NCBI RefSeq assembly: GCF_000522985.1 | Contig: NZ_CP007128.1 | Location: 3,952,220 to 4,016,219 of the forward strand | DNA: 64,000 nt | DNA from: Gemmatirosa kalamazoonensis | GTDB lineage: Bacteria > Gemmatimonadota > Gemmatimonadetes > Gemmatimonadales > Gemmatimonadaceae | Direction of reading: 5' to 3' | Shown: positions 10,065 to 11,986 of the stretch, one piece after another | Layout of the letters: every line of letters starts with the position of its first letter | How positions within the stretch are numbered: the first letter of the stretch is position 1 | The notes under the pieces: generated by a model | Seen by the model: the letters and a program-made list of their open reading frames with translations, nothing else | Databases searched by the model: none | What the model was told of the DNA's origin: nothing | Translations under genes and position numbers: made by a program

Positions 10065-10367
10065 GCCCACCCTCACCGTCAGAGATTCGTGCCGCTTACC
10101 GGATGGATCAGAGGGTGCAGGAGGCAGGCCACCCACCGCGCCGGGGAGCTCGACCGAACGTCGCCGGCGGGTCGGGGTAGCAGGTCGCCCGGCCGCCGGC
10201 CCGGGTGCCGCGGCGCGGCCCGAGAGCCATCCGTAACGCATTGTAAATAAACGGCTTACGAGCCTTCACCGAGACCGTCTTCGATGTTGACAGCGGCGAG
10301 AGCTTCGGGTAATTTTCGGGCACGGCAAAGTGCCCGAGCGATCGACCATAAAGCGAGAGGAAGCCGC
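10065..10367. other. Divergent intergenic region, 303 bp
   Basis: Lies between the 171-aa helical protein (minus) and the H1-like gene (plus). The left part (10065-10235) is GC-rich with no recognised site. At 10240-10262 there is an unusually AT-rich stretch (TTGTAAATAAACGG). The right part holds the promoter and leader hairpin of the H1-like gene, listed separately. Confidence 0.6.
10287..10315 (+). promoter_or_regulatory. Predicted promoter of the H1-like/Rad52-like pair
   Basis: A consensus TTGACA (10287-10292), a 17-base spacer and TAATTT (10310-10315) predict transcription from about 10322. A perfect 6-bp hairpin GGGCAC/GTGCCC (10318-10323 with 10330-10335) would lie at the extreme 5' end of the transcript, about 30 nt before the start codon. 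Such a 5' hairpin may stabilise the mRNA; that is inference. Confidence 0.65.
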
Positions 10368-11054
10368 GTGGCGGGGACCAAGAGAGGAGTGAAGCGCCAG
10401 GCGGCAGCACCGGCCCCGAAGCCGGCCGCCCCGAAGTCGGCCGCCCCGAAGACGGGGGCCGAGCGGCCGGTGACGAAGACGGGCGGGACGAAGGCCGCGA
10501 CGACGACGAAGGCGGCGACGACCAAGACGGCGGCGACGAAGGCGACCGCGACCAAGCCGGCGCCGCCGACGAAGGTGGCCCCACTGGCGAAGCCGGCGAG
10601 CCGGAATGGCAACGGGCACGCGCCGACGGCCAGCCGGACGCAGCCCAAGCCCCCGCCGCGCACGAAGGCGGCCGTCGTCCCGGTGGCGAAGGCGCCGGTG
10701 AAGAAGGCCGCGCCGACGAAGCGGGCCGCGAAGCCGGCGGTCCGCGGCGGTCGCACGGCCACGAACGGGGCGCGACGGAAGCCGGCGAAGGCCGGGAAGC
10801 CAAGCAAGCCGGCACCGCCGATCGTCCGGGTGGTGAAGGTCCGGCAGCTCGACCCGCTCGTGAAGTGCGGCCCGGCGACCTCCGTCGAGCAGCTCTTCCG
10901 GGTGGACGAGGAGGCGAACGGGCACATGACGGTCCACCTCGTCTTCCTCGACCGACACGGGTGGTACTGCGTGCACGGCCCGCGCTGCGCGGCCGTGGCC
11001 GACGTGCACTCGCACAACCGCACACCGCACGGGGCGCGCGCCGGAGGGCGCTAG
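10368..11054 (+). CDS. Histone H1-like Lys/Ala/Pro-rich protein with a conserved-looking C-terminal domain
   Basis: About 228 aa. Residues 1-150 are low-complexity and very basic, built from K, A, P and T with repeated TKAA, PKPAAPKSAAPK and TKRAAKPA units, like eukaryotic H1 tails and bacterial H1-like proteins (HctB, AlgP, HupB tails). The last ~70 residues are different in kind: ordinary composition, a run beginning VRVVKVRQLDPLVKCGP, then VEQLFRVDEEANGHMTVHLVF, DRHGWYCVHGPRC and VHSHNR. The Cys/His spacing could bind a metal, but I cannot name the domain. The GTG at 10368 is preceded by GAGAGGAAG. It lies 62 bp ahead of the Rad52-like gene and shares the promoter at 10287. It probably binds DNA through the basic part; the role of the C-terminal domain is unknown. 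Confidence 0.75.
   Translation: MAGTKRGVKRQAAAPAPKPAAPKSAAPKTGAERPVTKTGGTKAATTTKAATTKTAATKATATKPAPPTKVAPLAKPASRNGNGHAPTASRTQPKPPPRTKAAVVPVAKAPVKKAAPTKRAAKPAVRGGRTATNGARRKPAKAGKPSKPAPPIVRVVKVRQLDPLVKCGPATSVEQLFRVDEEANGHMTVHLVFLDRHGWYCVHGPRCAAVADVHSHNRTPHGARAGGR
10420..10570 (+). repeat. Low-complexity coding repeats in the H1-like gene
   Basis: Tandem short units such as GCCCCGAAGTCGGCC and GCGACGACGAAGGCG repeat with small variations and encode P-K-[AS]-A and A-T-[TK]-K repeats. Such tracts are prone to length change by slippage, so the copy number may vary between strains. Confidence 0.55.
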
Positions 11055-11116: not shown

Positions 11117-11986
11117 ATGATCGCGAGACACGAGACACAATTGGACAAGACGAACATCTGGTCGGCGCTGGCGGCCTCGCTGCCGGCGGGGGTGGTCTCC
11201 TGGCGGCAGGACGGGCGCTCGGTGCAGCGGGACGGGCGGTGGTACGCGCGCTTCGTCGCGTACATCGACGCGAACACGGTGCGCGAGCGGCTCGACGCGG
11301 TGGTGCCCGGCGAGTGGGACCTCACGCTCGACCTGCTCCCGCCGCTGGCGGCGCAGGACGAAGACGGGCACGTCTGCTCGTTCAAGGCGCGGCTGCAGAT
11401 CCTCGGCGTGATCCGCGAGGACGTGGGCACGGGGCGCGACTACAAGTCGGCGGCCACGGACGCGTTCAAGCGCGCCGCGGTGCGCTTCGGCATCGGCCAC
11501 GAGCTCTACGCGCTGGAGCCGAACTGGGTGGAGGTCGACGGCGATGGGCGGTACGCGAAGCCGGTCGAGGATCCGCAGGCGGCGTACGATCGCCGCACCA
11601 CGCGCCGCAACGGCAATGGGCGTCCGAGCGAGGGACGTCCGAGCGACGTGCCGGTCGCCTCGGCGGTGTCGGTGGAGGAGCACGAGCCCCGCGCGGAGCC
11701 GGCGGCGAACGGCAACCGCCCCGCCACGGCGATGGCGACGGACCCGGACGCGGTGAGCTGCCCGAAGTGCGGCGGCCGGATGTGGGACAACCGGCTCAGC
11801 AAGCGCAACCCGAAGGCGCCGGACTTCAAGTGCCGCGACCGGAGCTGCGACGGCGTCGTGTGGCCGCCGCGTGACGGCAAGGCCAAGGGCGGCGCGCCGG
11901 CGACGGTGCCGGCCGACGAGCCGGACGAGATCGCGTTCGACAGCTCGCCGCTCGGCGCGACGGCGGACGACGAGATCCCGTTCTGA
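11117..11986 (+). CDS. Rad52/DdrA-family single-strand annealing protein with zinc ribbon and SSB-like C-terminal tip
   Basis: It is 289 aa. Residues 15-145 match the Rad52/22 annealing fold; the hallmark is KSAATDAFKRAAVRFGIGHELY at about 110-131, preceded by a beta-rich core (ARFVAYIDANTVRERLD, SFKARLQILG). A disordered linker follows (150-210). A C4 zinc ribbon (CPKCGGRMWDN then FKCRDRSC) is near 215-245. The protein ends in DDEIPF, almost identical to the DDDIPF tip that lets SSB recruit repair proteins. Family knowledge: Rad52, DdrA and phage annealing proteins pair complementary single strands. The tail suggests it acts at SSB-type interaction hubs. It is downstream of the H1-like gene on the same strand, with no phage genes nearby. 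The ATG at 11117 has GACGAGAG directly before it. Confidence 0.8.
   Translation: MIARHETQLDKTNIWSALAASLPAGVVSWRQDGRSVQRDGRWYARFVAYIDANTVRERLDAVVPGEWDLTLDLLPPLAAQDEDGHVCSFKARLQILGVIREDVGTGRDYKSAATDAFKRAAVRFGIGHELYALEPNWVEVDGDGRYAKPVEDPQAAYDRRTTRRNGNGRPSEGRPSDVPVASAVSVEEHEPRAEPAANGNRPATAMATDPDAVSCPKCGGRMWDNRLSKRNPKAPDFKCRDRSCDGVVWPPRDGKAKGGAPATVPADEPDEIAFDSSPLGATADDEIPF

Follow-up and report, generated by a model that had tools for sequence, protein, structure and literature searches.

A chromosomal Rad52-type annealing protein of Gemmatirosa kalamazoonensis carries a zinc ribbon and an SSB-type tip that recur together on unrelated annealing proteins

The window analyzed here, a stretch of 64,000 nucleotides on a 5.3 Mb contig of the 7.48 Mb genome of Gemmatirosa kalamazoonensis, encodes a Rad52-type single-strand annealing protein that ends in a C4 zinc ribbon followed by a short acidic tip like that of bacterial SSB. 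Ribbon and tip form a portable cassette, which in Gemmatimonadota and viruses has repeatedly become joined to annealing proteins unrelated to one another (Rad52, ERF, RecT, and Sak4-like). We establish the anatomy of the protein, the conservation and specificity of its tip, and the portability of the cassette, and with moderate confidence we propose that the protein is an annealase with its own SSB-type docking tip, which would hold SSB partners such as RecO where SSB has been displaced, while the ribbon would contribute a further contact to nucleic acid. No description of the cassette was found in the largely open-access literature searched. The features of the gene and its upstream neighbor are as follows.

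10284..11054, + strand: histone-H1-like protein rich in Lys/Ala, encoded upstream; its C-terminal domain (HLVFLDRHGWYCVHGPRCAAV) is conserved; conserved neighbor
11117..11986, + strand: whole gene, chromosomal Rad52-type single-strand annealing protein with ribbon-tip cassette, 289 aa; ATG start, end ...ATADDEIPF
11135..11611, + strand: Rad52-fold annealing core, residues 7-165; based on PF04098, phrog_1097, AlphaFold2 pLDDT, and superposition on RAD52, Mgm101, and phage Sak
11612..11752, + strand: linker 1, residues 166-212, disordered and weakly conserved; pLDDT mostly <50, variable in the alignment
11753..11866, + strand: C4 zinc ribbon, residues 213-250 (C215, C218, C239, C244); based on the alignment, pLDDT of about 80, and recurrence on other cores
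11867..11965, + strand: linker 2, residues 251-283, disordered; pLDDT mostly <50
11966..11983, + strand: SSB-type C-terminal tip DDEIPF, residues 284-289; based on conservation and genome-wide specificity

The annealing gene at 11117-11986 is chromosomal rather than part of a prophage, because its neighborhood, from lysC, asd, and argE through to recN, is conserved across related genomes, which gene content and a scan for the ribbon place in the Gemmatimonadota. The order lysC, asd, argE, H1-like gene, annealing gene is kept in all eight related genomes compared, and within the stretches fetched from them a glycosidase-like gene is present in seven, an outer-membrane-like gene in six, and recN in six. 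Across the family, 29 of 99 genomes match the query with an E-value no higher than 1e-3, ribbon-only matches included. The H1-like gene, whose product has the motif YCVHGxxC in its conserved C-terminal domain, ends 62 bp upstream of the annealing gene, and the two are probably co-transcribed. We considered the H1-like gene as an obligate partner and rejected this; it is also found in genomes that do not have the annealing gene, and it is best described as a neighbor since it is present in 52 of the 99 genomes, compared to 29 for the annealing gene or ribbon.

The sequence-only reading had called the product an annealing protein, and this was borne out by both family assignment and structure. 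Residues 14-138 match PF04098 (Rad52_Rad22) with an E-value of 3.7e-10 and 40.4 bits against a curated cut-off of 20.3, and the nearest virus family for residues 16-144 is phrog_1097, an Erf-like annealing protein (E 1.3e-17). An AlphaFold2 model made from 16 homologues is confident over the core (about residues 7-165, pLDDT about 90), and its superposition on human RAD52 gives Z 11.7 and an rmsd of 3.4 over 128 aligned residues at 25% identity, unrelated entries scoring far lower. Superposition on Mgm101 (Z 10.2) and phage Sak (Z 9.5), together with a Foldseek match (E 4e-6), also supports a Rad52 fold. The protein has no match to the RecT/Red-beta family (PF03837) or the SSB OB fold (PF00436), a search of NCBIfam gave no match, and the whole protein matched none of the solved structures. 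Among annotated phages, it matched 12 records by its core alone. The genome also encodes a second Rad52 paralogue, which has neither ribbon nor tip. While the core fold and family thus agree with human RAD52, yeast Mgm101, and phage Sak, the window protein differs in being chromosomal in these bacteria and in that the ribbon and tip take the position held in RAD52 by its RPA/Rad51-binding tail and in Sak by its C-terminal domain.

A C4 zinc ribbon had also been read from the letters, between the core and the tip and joined through a disordered linker, and the alignment and the AlphaFold2 pLDDT agree with this layout: the ribbon is modeled at a pLDDT of about 80, and the linkers and tip are disordered. 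The four cysteines (C215-x2-C218-x20-C239-x4-C244) are invariant across the aligned ribbons, which share the signature CPKCGGxMWDNRxxKRNPxAPDFKCxxxxCDGVxWP, and the two knuckles and four cysteines of a topoisomerase-type C4 ribbon are all present. It resembles the C-terminal ribbons of type IA topoisomerases (PF01396) but falls below the Pfam cut-off and has a distinctive MWDNR...NPxAPDFKC motif. In the search against PF01396, the window protein was not among the matches, and a double-ribbon protein of the same genome (described below) reached 16.5 bits against the curated 32. Our ribbon profile does pick up topoisomerase I of relatives at its C-terminal ribbons, though weakly (E about 4e-4), and this resemblance is the one ground for suggesting that the ribbon may contact ssDNA. 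In relatives, topoisomerase I ribbons resembling the one studied here (L384, L385, L386) read FxACANETCDFVVWN.

The C-terminal DDEIPF was originally likened to the tip of SSB, and the comparison is apt because the SSB of this genome, its sole PF00436 match and encoded elsewhere, ends in DSDDDLPF. The window protein shares with bacterial SSB a tip of this kind on a disordered linker, but it has no OB fold. Conservation of the tip in orthologues had been named beforehand as the test that could overturn the idea, and the tip survived it. Among 34 non-redundant homologues (31 bacterial and three viral; all alignments and trees were built from metagenome-derived sequences), 28 end in [DE]x0-3[ILVM]PF, including 27 of the 31 bacterial ones, against a chance expectation of 0.0125 of 34 when the final 40 residues of every homologue are shuffled. 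The shortness of the motif is the only point in favor of a chance resemblance to SSB, and these counts, together with the genome-wide specificity described below, refute that explanation, to which we assign next to no probability. Within the tip, conservation is highest at the terminal hydrophobic-Pro-Phe rather than at the acids, and several tips have just one or two acidic residues (TDQVPF, NDPLPF, KELPF). Codons within the tip differ between homologues (ATC, ATT, CTG, CTA, or GTT; CCG, CCC, CCT, or CCA; TTC or TTT) with the residues constant, and the linkers on both sides diverge.

Six of the 34 homologues lack the tip. Among them is one clade (L027/L115 type) in which it is dispensable, as these proteins stop directly after the ribbon; other tipless ends are QADLTI and AAAMAS, along with DGFAF and LAEGY in virus relatives. 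Two virus contigs (L298:3001-3774 and L299:3004-3774) encode close relatives in which a different domain (VMPFGKFKGTSMGEL...) takes the place of the ribbon; the first of these ends in DDLDLPF and the second in DDGFAF. Such losses, and the absence of the tip from several viral ribbon proteins, could suggest that the tip is a functionless relic inherited along with a ribbon that does the work. We regard this as very improbable, since the flanking linkers diverge freely around a tip that is maintained with different codons, and since the L298 phage relative has exchanged its ribbon and still ends in an SSB-like tip.

To gain insight into how specific the tip is, we used the pattern GANGANNTNCCNTTYTRR, that is, [DE][DE]xPF followed by a stop or Trp. 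The 7.48 Mb genome contains only five sites at which [DE][DE]xPF is followed by a stop, namely SSB, the window protein, the double-ribbon protein, and a RecT protein encoded twice. We extended the search to 12 additional genomes that have the annealing gene and 10 selected for lacking it, which gave 39 more sites, five of which read into Trp and were discarded. Over the 23 genomes there are thus 39 real ends: 22 belong to SSB (one from a broken frame), 15 to ribbon proteins, and two to other proteins. SSB apart, tip and ribbon are therefore closely linked in this family. In the 10 genomes without the annealing gene, the 10 real ends belong to SSB every time, and a reversed control pattern gave one site in the genome of G. 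kalamazoonensis, two in the 12 genomes, and two in the 10. Given that hardly any proteins other than SSB and ribbon proteins bear the tip in these 23 genomes, we favor the proposal that it docks SSB partners. The sequence-only reading had called the protein an SSB mimic or competitor that recruits partners by itself; this restricted distribution supports the direction of that idea, but “competitor” is no better supported than “co-recruiter”. The two exceptions are a small prophage gene in one genome (G015) and a DinB-type-like frame in another (L413, G042) that ends in SADELPF, probably by chance. The prophage-like region on contig C2 of G015 (L048:3263-7898, - strand) contains the annealing core of the host in two degenerate copies, with one frame ending in ELALPF, and the small gene next to these copies ends in GADDDLPF.

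The larger finding, absent from the sequence-only reading, is that the cassette is common to unrelated annealing proteins. The same genome encodes a RecT/Bet protein on contig 3 (PF03837, 2.5e-29; TIGR01913 above cut-off) that has the ribbon and ends in DDDIPF, and a stand-alone double-ribbon protein (L002:1477-2007, + strand) that matches no known family and ends in DDEDLPF. The latter occurs in about a dozen relatives, is modeled with a pLDDT of 60, and has an SSB-like tip in all 11 aligned members, a sample picked among frames ending in PF. A Sak4-like ATPase of a relative (L040; PF13479, 1.2e-17) has the ribbon and ends in DGEIPF, and an ERF protein (PF04404, 1.4e-25) has the ribbon and ends in DEDLPF. 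Ribbon carriers in IMG/VR include many ERF proteins as well as additional Rad52 and RecT proteins and members of families whose function is unknown. Rad52 and ERF cores, which have been assigned to one fold superfamily (PMC9870868), show no sequence similarity in a profile comparison (E 0.28). The RecT gene (L003:1174-2514, - strand) is present in two copies, at about 7 kb and 60 kb of contig C3 of this genome (G000) and 53,060 bp apart. Starting at about base 357 of the contig, the stretches bearing them do not differ across the 17.6 kb compared; either a large region is directly duplicated, or the start of the contig contains an artefact of assembly.

To examine the link between ribbon and tip, we gathered ERF proteins from IMG/VR by ribbon or by core and reduced them at 70% identity. 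A loosely defined tip is present on 14 of 19 with the ribbon and on three of 44 without it (Fisher p 1.6e-7, with the proteins counted being related to one another). In a tree built from core columns only, ribbon-plus-tip falls in clades of 18 and four and one outlier, requiring at least two well-supported changes (three by parsimony), and a ribbon without a tip appears three times singly. Because at least two well-supported clades have both elements, ERF must have acquired these jointly on two or more occasions, and joint acquisition also took place on RecT, Rad52, and the Sak4-like ATPase. The association has exceptions, as ribbon proteins without a tip also occur (L140, L146, L157, L161, L171, and L172). 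Viral RecT proteins without the ribbon lack an SSB-like tip in most of some 70 distinct ends. A comparable shuffling of one module among unrelated annealing proteins is known from Firmicutes phages, in which a C-terminal HTH domain occurs across Sak4, RecT, and Erf/Sak3/Rad52 (PMC8093625), but that module is a helical DNA-binding domain, and here it is a zinc ribbon and SSB tip in other hosts.

Portability also bears on autoinhibition, in which the acidic tip would fold back into the basic groove for DNA, either on its own core or on the adjacent subunit of a ring, and damp non-specific annealing, much as the tail of SSB competes with ssDNA for SSB. There is a precedent in Hfq, whose RNA annealing is restrained by a disordered acidic C-terminal tip (PMC6561178), and the long flexible linkers predicted here would permit a fold-back. 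We nevertheless consider this explanation unlikely, as conservation is strongest in the hydrophobic-Pro-Phe and some tips have one or two acids, the same tip is found on unrelated cores and on a double-ribbon protein with no annealing core, and it matches the tip that SSB has in these genomes.

For the docking proposal, the fold of the core suggests that it would bind and anneal ssDNA as a ring or filament. The ribbon, which is of the kind that type IA topoisomerases have at their C-terminus, may add an ssDNA contact or fix the position of the tail. The free [ILV]PF tip on its flexible linker would dock in pockets that normally take the SSB tail, with RecO as the first candidate, and at places from which the annealase has displaced SSB, it would itself supply the docking signal in many copies, keeping repair partners at the site. 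RecO is encoded in the G. kalamazoonensis genome, and in the crystal structure of RecO with the SSB tail, the pocket shows Pro and Phe alone (PMC7913777), the most conserved tip residues among the window homologues.

Phage annealing proteins act on phage replication intermediates, and this would fit a second possibility, that the tip and ribbon target a replication protein (e.g., DnaG, PriA, a clamp-loader subunit, or a helicase) for annealing at the fork, with RecO-type repair partners beside the point. The cassette is widespread on viral annealing proteins, and SSB-type tips bind many replication as well as repair proteins (PMC7913777). None of our results favors a replication over a repair partner, and recN lies nearby in most of the sampled relatives, a weak piece of context; we judge a replication target to be improbable.

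The docking proposal also differs from what has been described previously, as known annealing proteins meet SSB-tail biology as the receptor. Annealing by phage HK620 Sak4 requires the C-terminal six residues of the cognate SSB (PMC5928155), and the C-terminus of Red-beta binds SSB (PMC9870868); the window protein carries the ligand instead. In both Red-beta and the window protein, an annealing core is joined to the SSB-tail network by its C-terminus, but the Red-beta annealase binds an SSB tail and the window annealase bears one itself. The RecT of this genome also has the ribbon-tip cassette. Likewise, annealing in HK620 is tied to the SSB hexapeptide through two separate proteins, whereas the Sak4-like protein noted above combines tip and ATPase in one chain.

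SSB is usually regarded as the sole bearer of the tail that organizes bacterial DNA repair. Here, a chromosomal gene and its virus relatives place an SSB-type tail on annealing proteins that are predicted to take the place of SSB on DNA. If the tip works as proposed, it would explain how partners stay at the site once SSB is displaced, and it would offer a route to designing annealing proteins that are less reliant on matching the host SSB. A broader proposal, which we put forward tentatively, is that a lineage-specific “SSB-tip cassette” belonging to Gemmatimonadota and the viruses that infect them may make any annealing protein (Rad52, ERF, RecT, or Sak4-like) an interaction hub in addition to SSB, the double-ribbon protein being a free adaptor, and that it may mark unrecognized recombination proteins in phrog_11717, phrog_22961, and phrog_16191.

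With regard to viral carriers, the 44 aa ribbon had no tblastn match among annotated phages and plasmids, and its viral form had none among phages even at E 10; named phage records are thus uninformative about the cassette. The NPxAPDFKC form was found in 33 stretches among 84,980 genomes, all of them Gemmatimonadota bar one chance archaeal match. Because of this confinement, the viruses bearing this form probably infect Gemmatimonadota. We also considered whether ribbon-tip annealing proteins replace a phage SSB gene, and we dropped this idea: an SSB was detected at just one viral ribbon locus, but SSB lies within 1.5 kb of ERF at none of 19 loci with the ribbon and five of 44 without it, a non-significant difference (p 0.31), and the SSB model was built from nine Gemmatimonadota sequences. 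As a sequence signature, the cassette can be used to discover new viral annealing proteins. A phrog_11717-like profile aligned with the window family within the ribbon only and did not align with ERF. Members of phrog_11717, phrog_22961, phrog_16191, and phrog_10048 are possibly unrecognized recombination proteins. The ribbon-sharing phage families of unknown function (L145, L148, and L166 in phrog_11717; L147 in phrog_22961; L159 in phrog_16191; L160 and L171 in phrog_10048) have an SSB-like end in most cases.
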